Virus record (IMG/VR): IMGVR_UViG_3300044996_000123
Coordinates: 1-37,120 of that record
DNA: 37,120 nt
Strand: one strand, 5' to 3'
Source: a virus
Shown here: in pieces, positions 5,526-19,976 of the stretch
How the letters are laid out: each line of letters starts with the position of its first letter
Numbering within the stretch: position 1 is the stretch's first letter
The notes under the pieces: model-generated
Seen by the model: only the letters and a program-made list of their open reading frames with translations
Told to the model about the DNA's origin: nothing
Databases searched by the model: none
Made by a program: the position numbers and the translations under genes

Positions 5526-6392
5526 ATGAACATATCACAAAAACAAGACGCAATCACACGCATTGACATGGATGGTTTTGTGGCTGGCTGGAAGAAGCGG
5601 ATACTGTTTCTATCTGACATCCATCTGGACAGCCCGTACTGCGACCTGCCATTACTGACGGCGCACCTGGACGAGGCGAAGCAGACGGACGCCATGGTTC
5701 TGATCGCCGGCGATCTGTGGGATGCCATGCAGGGGCGAAACGATCCACGGAGAAGCGCACGGGAGTTGAAAGAAGCATTGCGGGGGCTGGATTACTTTGA
5801 CCGGATTTTGGATGAGGCGGTCGAGTTTTTCAGGCCATACGCTGCCAACCTGGCACTGCTGGGGTATGGAAATCACGAGTATTCTGTCGTGATGCACAAC
5901 GGAACCGATTTACCGCAGCGGTTCGCGGCCATTATGCGCGGGCTGGGGTCACCGGTGGTGGTGGGCGGGTACGGCGGTTTTATTCGTATCGGTGTGTTTA
6001 CCGGATCACAGACAACGCCGCGGAGGAGTTTCAGGATTTATTACAATCACGGCGGAGGCGGCGAAGCTCCGGTCACGAAAGGGATGATCCAGACCAACCG
6101 ACAGGCGGCATACGTCCGCGGGGTAGACGTGGTGTGGAACGGTCACAATCACCAGGAGTACATCTCTCACCAAAGCACACTGGAGATCAACAACAAGGAT
6201 GTGGTGGAACAGGGGATGGTAACTTACATCCGAACGCCAGGATACAAGAATGAATACGGTGATGCGCACCACGGCTTCAACGGATTCGCGGCCAGCCGGA
6301 TGATGCAGCCGACACCCAGAGGATGTGCCTGGGGCGATCTGGTGTATCACAATGACAAGATCAGGTCAAAGTTTTTCGCGGATGTGATATGA
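5526..6392 (+). CDS. calcineurin-like metallophosphoesterase
   Basis: 288 residues with the full set of two-metal phosphoesterase motifs: SDIHLD (D31, H33), AGDLWD (D63), GYGNHE (N116, H117), NHGGGG (H175) and WNGHNH (H207, H209). Such enzymes hydrolyse phosphomonoesters or diesters, and phage members are sometimes DNA or nucleotide processing enzymes; the substrate here is unknown. No clear ribosome binding site precedes ATG 5526, so a later start such as the Met at residue 15 is possible, but all motifs lie downstream of either. Last gene of the rightward operon, followed by a strong terminator at 6429. Confidence 0.85.
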   Translation: MNISQKQDAITRIDMDGFVAGWKKRILFLSDIHLDSPYCDLPLLTAHLDEAKQTDAMVLIAGDLWDAMQGRNDPRRSARELKEALRGLDYFDRILDEAVEFFRPYAANLALLGYGNHEYSVVMHNGTDLPQRFAAIMRGLGSPVVVGGYGGFIRIGVFTGSQTTPRRSFRIYYNHGGGGEAPVTKGMIQTNRQAAYVRGVDVVWNGHNHQEYISHQSTLEINNKDVVEQGMVTYIRTPGYKNEYGDAHHGFNGFAASRMMQPTPRGCAWGDLVYHNDKIRSKFFADVI

Positions 6393-6428
6393 TATATGTA
6401 CATCCCTTTGGGGGATGACCCCATAGCC

Positions 6429-6460
6429 CCGCTGTCCAATAGGACAGCGGTTTTGTTTTT
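6429..6460 (+). terminator. Rho-independent terminator of the rightward tail/lysis operon
   Basis: Perfect 9-bp stem CCGCTGTCC (6429-6437) and GGACAGCGG (6442-6450) with an AATA loop, followed directly by TTTTGTTTTT. It lies 36 bases after the metallophosphoesterase stop. Confidence 0.9.
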
Positions 6461-6465
6461 CAGTA

Positions 6466-6474
6466 TGATATAAT
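6466..6474 (+). promoter_or_regulatory. candidate extended -10 promoter
   Basis: TGATATAAT is an exact extended -10 element (TG-N-TATAAT). No good -35 lies 16-18 bases upstream, as expected for extended -10 promoters. It sits right after the 6429 terminator and points rightward into a stretch with no convincing gene, so it could drive a non-coding transcript starting near 6481. Confidence 0.45.
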
Positions 6475-6480
6475 TGATGT

Positions 6481-6608
6481 ATCAATGGATCGGGGTATAC
6501 CGGTCGCAAGCTGGACGCAATTCGGCTCCATGCCGTGTAACGCACTGCTACGGCACATGCGTTCCATATCCAGCAAAAACACCCTGCGCGCGCGGGGTGT
6601 TTTAGTTT
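6481..6608 (+). ncRNA. candidate small non-coding RNA
   Basis: Predicted from structure only. Downstream of the extended -10 motif the sequence can fold into nested helices: CTGGA (6511-6515) with TCCAG (6569-6573), CGCA (6516-6519) with TGCG (6558-6561), and TGCCGT (6531-6536) with ACGGCA (6550-6555). A terminator-type hairpin ends it at 6576-6603. The only ORF (from 6485) runs through the terminator and looks unlike a protein. No known RNA family is recognised. The hairpins could also simply insulate the two converging operons. Confidence 0.35.
6576..6608. terminator. bidirectional terminator
   Basis: AAAACACCC (6576-6584) pairs perfectly with GGGTGTTTT (6595-6603) around a GC-rich loop of alternating G and C. 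A T-rich run follows on both strands, so it can stop a rightward small RNA as well as leftward read-through of the early operon. Confidence 0.75.
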
Positions 6609-6610
6609 AT

Positions 6611-6646
6611 AACCATGCTGATTTATTGCAATGGATCAGCATGGTT
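6611..6646. repeat. perfect 12-bp inverted repeat
   Basis: AACCATGCTGAT (6611-6622) and ATCAGCATGGTT (6635-6646) are exact reverse complements around a 12-base loop that itself contains the palindrome ATTGCAAT. It is followed by GTATTTTATG, so it may be a further weak terminator. Palindromic DNA of this length could also bind a dimeric protein. Confidence 0.6.
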
Positions 6647-6725
6647 GTATTTTATGATACTGAACCATTGGATATTATCGAATAGTTCGACACAAAATGT
6701 AATTATACTAATCGTGATTATTATG

Positions 6726-6754
6726 TTGGATAATAGACATGATGTGTCTATTAT
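6726..6754 (+). promoter_or_regulatory. candidate rightward promoter
   Basis: TTGGAT (6726-6731), a 17-base spacer and TATTAT (6749-6754) approximate a sigma-70 promoter (five of six matches at -10, weak -35). A transcript would start near 6761, cross the palindrome at 6770-6785 and end at the 6796-6827 terminator, making an RNA of about 65-70 bases with no ORF. Confidence 0.35.
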
Positions 6755-6755
6755 C
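6729..6755. repeat. 11-bp perfect inverted repeat
   Basis: GATAATAGACA (6729-6739) and TGTCTATTATC (6745-6755) flank a TGATG centre. It overlaps the candidate promoter at 6726-6754, so a bound dimer there would block it. It is AT-rich and has no T-run after it, which favours an operator over a terminator. Confidence 0.5.
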
Positions 6756-6769
6756 GAGTATGGAAGTAT

Positions 6770-6785
6770 TAGAACGGGCGTTCTA
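6770..6785. promoter_or_regulatory. LexA-box-like palindrome GAAC-N4-GTTC
   Basis: TAGAACGGGCGTTCTA is a perfect 16-bp palindrome with the GAAC-N4-GTTC form of the LexA/DinR box of Gram-positive bacteria. It lies just downstream of the candidate promoter at 6726-6754. A second copy of the same form is at 19598-19611. Confidence 0.5.
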
Positions 6786-6795
6786 GCATGCCCCT

Positions 6796-6827
6796 AAAAC
6801 GCGTCAGGATGGCTTCTGGCGCGTTTT
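6796..6827. terminator. bidirectional terminator at the end of the leftward early operon
   Basis: AAAACGCG (6796-6803) pairs with CGCGTTTT (6820-6827), and CAG (6805-6807) with CTG (6816-6818), around an eight-base loop. A- and T-rich flanks give a U-tract in both directions. The leftward HNH gene stops at 6834, seven bases away. Confidence 0.85.
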
Positions 6828-6833
6828 ATTTGC

Positions 6834-7388
6834 CTAATATGATGTTGGATATGGCTGATATCTGAATTTCACTTTCAGCGGCAAACTTTTTTTCCAGGCT
6901 TCCATGTCATACCGTTTTTCCTGCACCAGCCAGAAGCGGTCAAAGAACTCATCTGTATCTGCTCGCCCAGAACTGTGACATTTCTGGCATACCAGAGAAA
7001 GATTCTGCGGAGCATCCAGCACCGGTAATCTCTTTGACCGGTGAATAAATACATGATGCGCTTCCAGATAAGTCTGTGGTTCTCCGCAACATTCGCAGCG
7101 ATAGCCGCGCTTTTCCAGCAACTCCGTTTTAGTTATATACAGGGGCTTTACATCCGTGATCTTTCCCATGCAGCCTCCATTGACCCAATGCGTCCAGCCG
7201 TCCTCCGAAATATTCTTGGATGTAAGTAGGCAAGCGAAGTGATAGCCATGCTCCAGCAGCCAGCGGGCGGCTTCTCCGTCACCAACCCGCACATCTCGGA
7301 TCGCTGTCACAATTGCCGCGTAGGCAATTCTGGCGGCCTGGTGTTCAGTCAGGTGATATGGTAACTGGTTGGACAAATTCTTTGACAT
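6834..7388 (-). CDS. HNH endonuclease
   Basis: 184 residues. The C-terminal half holds an HNH nuclease core: C-E-C-C ahead of LEAHHVFIH, then NLSLVCQKCHSSG, so two Cys pairs would bind a structural zinc and the H-H ... N ... H residues form the metal-dependent active site. The N-terminal half is helical and unassigned. ATG 7388 is chosen; the frame stays open to a TTG at 7412, and both overlap the 3' end of the upstream gene. It is the last gene of the leftward operon. Phage HNH proteins can aid packaging or be homing nucleases; this one sits far from the terminase, so the role is open. Confidence 0.8.
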   Translation of the reverse strand: MSKNLSNQLPYHLTEHQAARIAYAAIVTAIRDVRVGDGEAARWLLEHGYHFACLLTSKNISEDGWTHWVNGGCMGKITDVKPLYITKTELLEKRGYRCECCGEPQTYLEAHHVFIHRSKRLPVLDAPQNLSLVCQKCHSSGRADTDEFFDRFWLVQEKRYDMEAWKKSLPLKVKFRYQPYPTSY

Positions 7389-7872
7389 GGTCCGGGGTAT
7401 CTGGGTCGGCAAAGATGCTCTCTGCTAATTCAACCAGCCGTTCCAGCCGCAGCTTCCACTTCGGGACTTCGCGCTCTTCACCTTTTACCCAATTGCTGAT
7501 CGTGACAACCGGGGCGGTTTTCCCACCATGGTCGTGAGCATACTCCACGGCCCGTTCCGCATAATCTTCCCATTCGTCTCCGGCATTCAGACAAGCCCTA
7601 TACTGATGCCTGGAAAGGTTGTAGGTGCGTTTGTTGGGCGGGATCAGTTTGGACATGCGCTGCTGATCCCGAATGGTATCTGTGTTCCAGCCGATTAGAT
7701 TTGCTACAACAGAGCGTACTTCCAGTTTTGAGAATGCGATCTGGTAAGCATCGCACAGGTCATTCGAAACATCCCCGATGATCCAGTACGAAGCGTCAGC
7801 CGTCTGTGCTGCCTGTATTAAGATGTTTTGGATCTCGTCCGGTAACTTGATATATGGTGATTGTTCGCTCAA
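7345..7872 (-). CDS. hypothetical protein
   Basis: 175 residues beginning at a TTG: the codon just before it is a stop and GGAAGG lies six bases upstream, so TTG is the most likely start. The sequence is mixed alpha/beta with an ISNWVKGEEREVPKWK segment near residue 125. Parts look like a DNA-associated helical protein, with a central region that could be a helix-turn-helix (VVANLIGWNTDTIRDQQRM, about residues 54-72). No family recognised. Its 3' end overlaps the HNH gene, so the two are probably co-translated. Confidence 0.5.
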   Translation of the reverse strand: MSEQSPYIKLPDEIQNILIQAAQTADASYWIIGDVSNDLCDAYQIAFSKLEVRSVVANLIGWNTDTIRDQQRMSKLIPPNKRTYNLSRHQYRACLNAGDEWEDYAERAVEYAHDHGGKTAPVVTISNWVKGEEREVPKWKLRLERLVELAESIFADPDTPDHVKEFVQPVTISPD

Positions 7873-12494: not shown

Positions 12495-13715
12495 TTATGA
12501 TTGATACTCTGGTAAATATTCCTTCGCGGACATTCCAAATGTCCACGCGACTGCCTCATGTGCTGTCTTTGTCTCTGGAGGTACGCGCAAATAATAATCT
12601 TTGAATGACCCGTCTGGTTCGGGCGTAGAATTGGTTACTTTGACCATTACAATAGGCTCGTCTCCTTGCACTTCGCGGCGATACAGCGTTCCAAACTCAT
12701 CCGATTGGATGACTTTCCCTGATTGCGCATATTTATCAGCACCAAACTTGTCTATCATCACTCTGCGAATTTCTGCATTGCTTTCAGTGGTAATGTTGTC
12801 AATTGTGATTTTTTCCGGTTCTGTGATAATCCACTCCGGTAATCTTACGCCGTGAACAGCATATACTCCCCAGCCATCGGGGTATGCTAGAGCGATACCA
12901 TTTGGATTATGTAATCTGCCCTGTTCATCCAGATGTAAAATATTGTGTCGTTCGGATATTAAACAGATATTCTTGAACGGCAAGTACCACCCGGCTGATT
13001 TACATACTTTCCATTGACCGGATAGTTTTTCAGTTTCAGCAATTAATCCGCACTCGTCATGGAAATATCTATAAAATGCCAGCCAATTTGTATCGTGTTG
13101 GCCATATCCAGAATTCCAGACGGAATCCCCGACGGAATCCCCGACGGAAGCCCCGACGGAAGCTCTGACGGAATCCCAGACGGAATCCCCGACGGAATCC
13201 CAGACGGAAGCCATGACGGAATCCCCGACGGAAGCCCCGACGGAATCCCCGACGGAATCCCCGACGGAAGCCCAGACGGAAGCCCTGACGGAAGCCCAGA
13301 CGGAAGCCCTGACGGAAGCCCTGACGGAAGCTCTGACGGAATCCCTGACGGAAGCCCTGACGGAAGCTCTGACGGAATCCCAGACGGAATCCCCGACGGA
13401 ATCCCAGACGGAAGCCATGACGGAATCCCCGACGGAATCCCCGACGGAAGCCCAGACGGAAGCCCCGACGGAATCCCTGACGGAAGCCCTGACGGAAGCC
13501 TTATCTTTTACCATTGCGTAAATCAACGCGTTTGCCATCGGGCTGGTTGTCCAAATAATTTTTGGCTCTTTCAAACCCACTACAGCATACATCTCGCGGA
13601 TTCCTTCTTCAGCCAGCGGTCTATTCGCTGGTTCGGTGAATAACCCGTAGCCAGTCCATTCTTTTAAATAGGCAGGAAACTTATCTGTCTGTTCTTTTGT
13701 TAGTTGAGTGATCAT
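12495..13715 (-). CDS. DUF6745-like protein with 32 tetrapeptide repeats
   Basis: 406 residues from ATG 13715 after GAGGAAATT; the longer ORF to 13874 would overlap the exonuclease remnant. Residues 1-72 form a helical N-terminus, then come 32 uninterrupted repeats of [A/D]-S-V-[R/G/W/M], then a globular domain (about residues 205-406) from GQHDTNWLAFYRYFHDECGL through LISERHNILHLDEQGRLHNP to EAVAWTFGMSAKEY. That domain matches what I know as DUF6745, which often carries such repeats. The array could form a regular solenoid. Function unknown. The neighbour with the GHHH motif is downstream. Confidence 0.7.
   Translation of the reverse strand: MITQLTKEQTDKFPAYLKEWTGYGLFTEPANRPLAEEGIREMYAVVGLKEPKIIWTTSPMANALIYAMVKDKASVRASVRDSVGASVWASVGDSVGDSVMASVWDSVGDSVWDSVRASVRASVRDSVRASVRASVRASVWASVRASVWASVGDSVGDSVGASVGDSVMASVWDSVGDSVWDSVRASVGASVGDSVGDSVWNSGYGQHDTNWLAFYRYFHDECGLIAETEKLSGQWKVCKSAGWYLPFKNICLISERHNILHLDEQGRLHNPNGIALAYPDGWGVYAVHGVRLPEWIITEPEKITIDNITTESNAEIRRVMIDKFGADKYAQSGKVIQSDEFGTLYRREVQGDEPIVMVKVTNSTPEPDGSFKDYYLRVPPETKTAHEAVAWTFGMSAKEYLPEYQS
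13116..13499 (-). repeat. 12-bp tandem repeat array, 32 units, in frame
   Basis: Each unit encodes Ala/Asp-Ser-Val-x; on the + strand the units read GACGGAATCCCC, GACGGAAGCCCT and variants. A block of units (DSVM, ASVW, DSVG, DSVW, DSVR) occurs at units 7-11 and again at 24-28, so a larger internal duplication took place. Because the unit length is a multiple of three, long ORFs appear in other frames and on the other strand; these are artefacts. Confidence 0.93.
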
Positions 13716-13752
13716 AATTTCCTCATATTCATCATACTGTGATAAGTTTGCT

Positions 13753-14019
13753 CTATTCGGAGGTGTCGGTCTGGAAATCCTGCAAATACACGCCACACAT
13801 CTTTTGGTACAGGCGAAGTGTGAGCTCCACATCGTTGCCGCAGTACGCCCGCAGCGTCTCTGGCTCCATTCCATCCACCAGAGAGCCGTTCAGTTCCGGT
13901 AGTGGGTTCTCTATGCCGTACCGTTTGCAGACAAATTTCAGACCTTTCGCCGGCCCCCAGCCGTACAAGATGCCCATCAGATCAATGGTCGGATACTCGC
14001 TGTACTTGCGCAACTCCGG
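13753..14019 (-). pseudogene. 3' remnant of a 3'-5' exonuclease gene
   Basis: About 89 residues with no proper start: the frame begins right after a TAG (14020-14022) created at the junction with the 92-bp repeat. It contains YPTIDLMGILYGWGPAKGLK and YCGNDVELTLRLYQKM, the latter resembling the exo III motif (Y-x3-D) of DnaQ/PolB-type 3'-5' exonucleases. The exo I and exo II parts, with their Asp/Glu residues, are missing, so it cannot be catalytic. A short product from an internal ATG at 13977 is possible but would lack the active site. It lies between the chimeric ORF and the DUF6745-like gene. Confidence 0.7.
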
Positions 14020-14149
14020 CTATGGATGAGGGTACACCATCCCCGTGTTTGTTGTCCTCAACAGGGCAGGTGCAACCTAATTTGACGGCCTCATCGCTTC
14101 CCGGGTTGGGTGTTCTTTCAGGAGTATCTGGCAATTCGTTTTTGTTCAT
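13982..14149 (-). CDS. chimeric ORF: half a Cys-rich protein joined to exonuclease DNA
   Basis: 55 residues from ATG 14149, which overlaps the previous stop as ATGA. Residues 1-12 (MNKNELPDTPER) are unique. The next 31 or so, TPNPGSDEAV to GVPSS, are encoded by the 92-bp repeat and equal the Cys-rich protein at 11187. The last 12 (AGVAQVQRVSDH) come from the exonuclease sequence read in the wrong frame. It keeps CTCP but loses the CPLHG half of the metal site, so it is probably non-functional, though still in a position to be translated. Confidence 0.55.
   Translation of the reverse strand: MNKNELPDTPERTPNPGSDEAVKLGCTCPVEDNKHGDGVPSSIAGVAQVQRVSDH
14022..14113. repeat. 92-bp exact direct repeat, copy 2
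   Basis: Exact copy of 11248-11339. Its left edge is the breakpoint with the truncated exonuclease; its right edge leads into a different 5' coding end. See the chimeric ORF at 13982. Confidence 0.95.
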
Positions 14150-14790
14150 TTGTCTGTCTCCATCTGCAATTTAGCCAGTTCTATTGCCGCTAGATACATT
14201 TTTGCATGGCGGTTATCGCCGTGAGTTTCTATGACCCGCTTGGTAAAATCATCCAATGAGCCATAGAAACATCCACAGACTACGGCAATGCCTTTTTCCT
14301 CTCGGAAGAAGGTGGTAGTACTATTGCGAGAGCCAATAGGGCTAACTGTCAGGTAATCGGTTTTTTTTGATACCCACGCATCACCGTACACCCGCGCATC
14401 GCCGTACACCCACGCATCGCCGTACACCCACGCATTGCCGAATACCTGCGCATTGCCGAATACCCGCGCATCGCCGTACACCCACGCATTGCCGAATACC
14501 TGCGCATTGCCGTACACCCACGCATCACCGTACACCCGCGCATCGCCGTACACCCGCGCATCGCCGTACACCCACGCATTGCCGAATACCCGCGCATCGC
14601 CGTACACCCGCGCATCGCCGTACACCCACGCATTGCCGAATACCTGCGCATTGCCATCCTGCGATAAATTTTTTTCGCTTTCAATCCATCCGCCTAATTC
14701 GCCAGCATTTATTCCGGGCAAATCAATCAGATATTTGATGCGGCGCAATCCATATTCGTTTACCTCGTCAGTAAGCTCATATTTTTTCAT
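14146..14790 (-). CDS. hexapeptide-repeat (left-handed beta-helix-like) protein
   Basis: 214 residues. The N-terminus (YELTDEVNEYGLRRIKYLID ... GELGGWIESEKNLS) leads into 16 tandem hexads of the form G-[D/N]-A-[R/W/Q]-V-[Y/F], such as GDARVY and GNAWVY. A small residue and an aliphatic one at fixed positions suit a left-handed beta-helix. The C-terminal domain (FFREEKGIAVVCGCFYGSLD ... HGDNRHAKMYLAAIELAKLQ) also occurs in similar proteins of phages and gut bacteria, to my knowledge uncharacterised. ATG follows GAGGTAAG. No acyltransferase active-site His is evident in the repeats. A binding or scaffolding role is inferred. Confidence 0.7.
   Translation of the reverse strand: MKKYELTDEVNEYGLRRIKYLIDLPGINAGELGGWIESEKNLSQDGNAQVFGNAWVYGDARVYGDARVFGNAWVYGDARVYGDARVYGDAWVYGNAQVFGNAWVYGDARVFGNAQVFGNAWVYGDAWVYGDARVYGDAWVSKKTDYLTVSPIGSRNSTTTFFREEKGIAVVCGCFYGSLDDFTKRVIETHGDNRHAKMYLAAIELAKLQMETDK
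14368..14655 (-). repeat. 18-bp tandem repeat array, 16 units, in frame
   Basis: Units encode G-[D/N]-A-x-V-[Y/F]. On the + strand they read like GTACACCCACGCATCGCC and GAATACCTGCGCATTGCC. Copy number can change without a frameshift. Long ORFs in the other frames across this span follow from the repeat. Confidence 0.93.
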
Positions 14791-19809: not shown

Positions 19810-19917
19810 CATTGGACTATTTATATCCGGAAAGCCCTATATATAGGTGCTCAAAGAATGAATAATCGTATATGTACTGGTAATTCTGGAAAGAATCGGC
19901 TGGGAATGCGGACACGA

Positions 19918-19961
19918 CTCATAAGCCATTGGTTGTGGGTTCAAATCCCACCCTCGCCACC
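19918..19961 (+). other. attP: attP core: 3' half of a CAT-anticodon tRNA gene
   Basis: The sequence reads as the 3' half of a tRNA: anticodon loop CTCATAA (19918-19924), 3' anticodon strand GCCAT, five-base variable loop TGGTT, T-arm GTGGG-TTCAAAT-CCCAC (19935-19951), acceptor strand CCTCGCC (19952-19958), discriminator A, then CC. The matching 5' half (GGCGAGG and D-arm) is absent, so this is not a tRNA gene. Just upstream of an integrase it is the expected attP core, able to rebuild the host tRNA (elongator tRNA-Met most likely; tRNA-Ile2 also has CAT) after integration. Confidence 0.85.
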
Positions 19962-19976
19962 TAAAAACACCGCTAT

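Follow-up and report, generated by a model that had tools for sequence, protein, structure and literature searches.

The window analysed here is a whole 37,120-base virus record. It contains two operons that converge on a gap of 441 bases, and the question raised by this locus is whether the gap carries a small RNA gene of its own. The window encodes an SU10-type capsid, a terminase, an integrase and a GH25 lysozyme, together with a RecA-like ATPase and a DnaB-type replication gene, and on our best reading the host phage is temperate and podovirus-like. The rightward late operon ends with a metallophosphoesterase-like gene (5526-6392, + strand; Pfam PF00149, E 9.2e-6; phrog_7339 DNA repair exonuclease, E 4e-15), and the leftward operon ends with an HNH endonuclease-like gene (6834-7412, - strand; PF01844, E 4e-5; PHROG HNH families), the gap being counted between the stops at 6392 and 6834. 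Beyond 6608, mechanical open reading frames aside, tandem genes occupy the - strand to about 19.1 kb, and the initial annotation was right to place the span between converging operons. From left to right, the gap contains a terminator (T1), the extended -10 element TGATATAAT, the candidate RNA, its terminator (T2), a further hairpin (T3), an 11-5-11 palindrome and the terminator of the leftward operon (T5). Because its neighbours converge and T1 splits it from the phosphoesterase mRNA, the candidate RNA does not qualify as a leader, and it is not an obvious 3' UTR either.

T1 (6429-6460, + strand), the late-operon terminator, has a 9-bp stem (7 GC) and a T-rich tail. The candidate promoter, TGATATAAT, follows at 6466-6474 (+ strand), and no -35-like hexamer was found at a spacing of 16-18 nt from it. 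The extended -10 promoter annotated at this site was present as an exact element, but its frequency was not above chance, with one TGNTATAAT in the 37-kb window compared to 1.47 in shuffled sequences. Across 38 loci with related phosphoesterase genes, 22 extended -10 sites were counted compared to 8.1 ± 2.4 in shuffles (about 2.7-fold; maximum of 16 in 50 shuffles), and a promoter of this type is therefore plausible in such phages. From the promoter and the terminator we infer transcription of a candidate small RNA (6481-6608, + strand), starting 7 nt past the -10 element and ending at the tail of T2, TTTTAGTTT. T2 (6576-6603, + strand) was found to be the hairpin terminator with a U-tract that had been described: 6575-6608 folded at -19.1 kcal/mol (z -4.4), a value equalled by 0 of 200 shuffles. 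It supplies the candidate with an intrinsic terminator of its own, as in a stand-alone phage sRNA gene. T2 could stop leftward transcripts too, because U-tracts stand on both strands.

Within the candidate RNA and its promoter, the terminator alone exceeded chance, and the part ahead of it folded slightly better than shuffled sequence. When the RNA minus its terminator was examined, the shuffle tests gave z values of -1.4 (19 of 200 shuffles equal), -1.8 (17 of 300) and -1.7 (14 of 200); a stretch with chosen ends, 6506-6576, reached z -2.4 (2 of 200 shuffles equal). Nested helices had been proposed for this region, and both the outer helix (6510-6515/6569-6574) and the inner helix (6536-6544/6558-6566) were present, but the simple nest differed from the energy minimum. 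In the minimum, the outer helix encloses two hairpins and forms a middle domain (6510-6574, + strand; z -2.3 to -2.4, ends chosen), and a separate 5' hairpin at 6488-6505, missing from the initial annotation, is also formed. A self-complementary loop, GGUAUACC, was considered as a site for a kissing dimer and was rejected, the window RNA being not above shuffles (p 0.12). The same test was applied to nine RNAs (compared loci carry L numbers); L203 gave p 0.07, and the one low value, 0.0075, came from L053, where another hairpin was involved.

Relatives of the whole RNA were sought by several routes. Rfam (4227 families) yielded no match in the window at the gathering threshold, and its sub-threshold matches were terminator-like or due to chance. 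No whole-RNA homologue was detected by blastn in named phages or plasmids, and a search with an exact 28-mer found no relative in viral contigs. Single-sequence covariance models, run on 44 and 28 sources, returned the window itself and otherwise terminator-driven or weak matches only. A helix-based pattern gave 21 matches; in 17 of them the surrounding 117-124 codons contained a spanning open frame of 106 codons or more, and these were rejected, while the remaining four (L025, L032, L035 and L036) were judged by eye. The nearest relative of the region, L003 (66% phosphoesterase identity), has about 120 bases between its converging genes and is without the candidate span. The three contigs nearest by terminase (L004, L005 and L006) end short of the region, as do contigs whose terminase is identical or 91% identical. 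In the collections searched, no relative of 80-95% identity was found that covers 6400-6830. No relatives of the terminase and phosphoesterase were found in bacterial genomes, and none of the HNH protein in viral contigs.

The stretch following the phosphoesterase gene was read in 12 of 42 loci. A promoter-like site, a noncoding stretch and a clear terminator were present in four of those read, preceding same-strand genes in L040 and L049 and lying beside the integrase in L051 and L053. The four loci have no sequence in common with the window RNA, and this anatomy was rejected as homology. For the independent small RNA gene proposed initially, the anatomy was confirmed (an extended -10 element past the operon terminator, about 128 nt, an own terminator and no good frame), but a whole-RNA homologue was not found. 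In L040 (5783-6214; likewise in L041), a terminator and TGGTATAAT are followed by about 390 nt in which no gene is convincing and by a closing terminator. The 390-nt stretch opens with a DUF3800-VI RNA (RF02915, 50 bits), which in this locus with a related phosphoesterase gene stands right after the terminator and the extended -10 site; no match to RF02915 was found in the window.

The 5' hairpin was encountered again in other phages. This hairpin, P1 (6487-6506, + strand; GAUCGG-GGUAUA-CCGGUC), is encoded by the 20-mer GGATCGGGGTATACCGGTCG, and the 20-mer is identical in two unrelated uncultured phages, at L203 2411-2430 (+) and L206 4250-4231 (-). Agreement with the window around P1 extends over 20 bases in L203 and 22 in L206. 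Both copies are outside long open frames, and a terminator-type hairpin follows each on the same strand. With up to three mismatches allowed, P1 was found in the three exact-copy phages among 20 phage records and in none of the other 17. Covariance-model scores (E 0.0019 for L203 and E 0.045 for L206) carry little weight, the contigs having been chosen beforehand by the pattern. The 17-base hairpin core was absent, as DNA or RNA, from the open literature searched. Two further matches were rejected, one in Rhodobacteraceae phage LS06-2018-MD07 (E 4), which lies inside an annotated gene, and one in a Rhizobium plasmid (E 0.9, one mismatch), where an open frame runs across the site.

A viral scan with the 17-mer GGATCGGGGTATACCGG recovered nine contigs, about six of them distinct, and seven of the nine were set aside, the site lying in each within an open frame 106 or more codons long. 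The size of the collection was estimated at ~4.4e10 bases from 21 matches to a pattern with 20 fixed bases and 261 spacings. By this estimate, about 5 matches to the 17-mer are expected by chance, and the observed count would be ordinary. About 0.1 matches are expected for the 20-mer, a length chosen after the matches were seen. The argument against chance is weakened because of this post hoc choice, and because a coding pair, L200/L202, likewise shares 20 consecutive bases with the window, shifted by one. The identical copies support an element at the RNA level, and they contain no covariation because they are identical. In six comparisons among the three loci, the flanks of P1 showed no similarity above shuffles, and L203 and L206 have terminases like those of different phage groups. 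For these two reasons, the shared unit would be the hairpin and not the RNA, if the identity is not due to chance, and the hairpin is perhaps portable.

The two other copies of P1 have different surroundings. In L203, P1 is in a noncoding leader that has the terminase side at one end and, at the other, a gene whose PHROG matches are late-regulator/sigma-like; it lies inside a multibranch fold (z -3.9) with about 13 pairs in its closing helix, and a promoter-like TGTTATTAT was seen upstream by eye. In L206, P1 is downstream of tRNA-Glu and directly before a terminator, in a noncoding stretch that starts, by eye, at TTGAAA-17-TATAAT. This stretch of about 500 nt (4690-4180, - strand), made up of a promoter, the embedded tRNA-Glu and the terminator, has a GOLLD/ROOL-like layout, and the tRNA was its sole Rfam match. 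GOLLD and ROOL are phage noncoding RNAs that are often near tRNAs, according to PMC12286853. L206 resembles them in having a tRNA within a long noncoding stretch, at the end of which stand P1 and a terminator. Compared to the candidate RNA, GOLLD and ROOL are several times as long and have elaborate folds, and no match to either Rfam model was found in the window, L203 or L206. It is possible, though on balance doubtful, that unrelated phages retain GAUCGG-GGUAUA-CCGGUC without any change, as a portable hairpin just upstream of intrinsic terminators in noncoding transcripts that are otherwise dissimilar. Such a hairpin would be a module binding a conserved protein or the transcription machinery, and it would mark an undescribed set of phage RNAs.

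Our best explanation, to which we give about an even chance of being correct, is that the span is a lineage-specific, free-standing phage sRNA gene, its product a discrete RNA that acts in trans and docks through P1. RNA polymerase would start at about 6481 from the extended -10 promoter just past T1, and the RNA would be about 125-130 nt long with its stop at T2, or up to about 175 nt long via T3 if T2 were passed. Its layout would be P1, the middle domain with its closing helix of 6 bp, and the terminator. Regulatory action would most likely be in trans; P1 would be where a protein or a second RNA docks, with specificity residing in the middle domain and the loops. The sRNA gene is favoured because the order and spacing of promoter and terminator are right with no coding signal between them, because the neighbours converge and phages that share the phosphoesterase family are enriched in extended -10 elements, and because P1 is shared with L203 and L206, noncoding and ahead of a terminator in each. 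It is weakened because a whole-RNA homologue was not found and L003 is without the span, because the non-terminator fold is near chance and one TGNTATAAT is expected by chance, and because the 17-mer match count is ordinary and the P1 flanks are dissimilar.

The main rival, and the one most deserving of weight, is a terminator or insulator array between the converging operons, in which T1, T2, T3 and T5 would block readthrough both ways and the TATAAT-like site would be fortuitous or would yield a functionless short transcript; we regard it as a serious possibility that falls short of probable. The hairpins stand in a row, and each strand of T2 and of T5 has a U-tract, T5 (6795-6828, - strand) being the leftward-operon terminator after the HNH gene, with 13-nt arms and T-rich tails. 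The strongest fold among 247 segments sampled along the phage, a 95-nt segment from 6601 (z -7.1), is that of T3 and not of the candidate RNA. The near-chance folding ahead of T2, the single TGNTATAAT expected by chance and the fact that L003 does without the span also agree with an array. An array, however, needs neither the ~100 bp of non-terminator sequence behind an exact extended -10 element nor a P1 shared with two other phages. T3 itself (6608-6649, + strand), a 19-pair hairpin with a T-rich tail, may be a back-up terminator or another structure, and its right arm is also able to pair with 6657-6670, which makes two alternative structures possible.

The palindrome GATAATAGACA-TGATG-TGTCTATTATC (6729-6755) was found in one copy in the window. 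Near copies are located immediately past the phosphoesterase stop in L003 (3904, 4 mismatches) and L053 (4917, 2 mismatches). Among the matches listed in a wider scan, palindrome-like sites outside frames of at least 90 codons were found in L091, L141, L176 and L184, the L184 site being about 300 bp from the integrase, and most of the matches listed are probably due to chance. Could the palindrome be a conserved operator or a recombination site? A role as attP is unlikely, because a tRNA-like 3' end adjoins the integrase instead. This end (GGTTGTGGGTTCAAATCCCACC...CGCCACC, 19890-19962), which by eye immediately precedes the integrase gene (20010), is likely to be an attP in a tRNA gene; ARAGORN detected no tRNA or tmRNA genes in the window. 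In L059, a tmRNA-family match (2695-2784), with the whole model in 90 nt, lies about 750 nt past the phosphoesterase gene and may be a fragment that marks an att site. The window also contains internal repeats in steps of about 11-12 bp at 13111-13416, inside the gene of a DUF6745 protein (12495-13874), and in steps of about 54 bp at 14369-14790, within the coding frame 14146-14790; relatives match in many shifted registers.

An antisense regulator of the HNH gene, in which the 5' part of the RNA would pair with the region of the HNH translation start, is improbable. This pairing was the best among 45 gene starts, at -67.3 kcal/mol, a value reached by 0 of 160 dinucleotide shuffles when the HNH gene was considered alone, but by 6 of 160 when all 45 genes were considered. 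It is interrupted many times over its 78 nt, and its energy takes no account of what unfolding P1 would cost; the longest perfect complement elsewhere in the phage is 10 nt, equal at several unrelated places.

A small protein of 66 amino acids, made from a nearly leaderless ATG at 6485, has very little probability: the open frame of 66 codons (6485-6685) crosses the candidate span from 5 nt past the predicted RNA start, and its part in the terminator region (6575-6682) has a gene-like codon score of +0.16, but 6485-6574 scores -0.26, the out-of-frame level, compared to a mean of +0.19 for genes, no ribosome-binding site (Shine-Dalgarno) is visible by eye ahead of the ATG, no Pfam or phage match was found for the frame, and the frame passes through T2 and T3. 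The earlier statement that the span holds no convincing ORF agrees with these data, and the span looks noncoding in the manner of a stand-alone phage sRNA gene.

The 6S and late-operon leader RNAs of lambda combine a promoter, a short RNA and an intrinsic terminator under antitermination control. The window candidate resembles this layout in its promoter, short span and terminator, and in L203 and L049 the layout stands ahead of structural genes. A 6S-type late leader was rejected for the window RNA, which cannot be an antitermination leader because it has no downstream gene on its own strand.

Stand-alone, trans-acting phage sRNAs are described in PMC12197685, including PreS/LPR1 of lambda, VpdS of VP882 and 24B_1 of Phi24B, and PreS is located there between two phage genes. 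The candidate is like them in being a predicted short noncoding RNA of a temperate phage. In that text, PreS/LPR1, VpdS and 24B_1 have been seen as RNA, some of them binding Hfq and with targets, whereas the window candidate is a prediction from sequence. Phage sRNAs as such are already known from the same source, and the candidate would be a new sRNA without a known relative; as matters stand, it is one further orphan phage sRNA candidate. The hairpin module, if confirmed, would be new. If P1 is a true module, it would provide a 20-base handle to find phage noncoding RNAs that covariance libraries overlook, since divergence has left nothing alike outside the hairpin, and it would serve as a defined bait with which to fish out the partner of P1.
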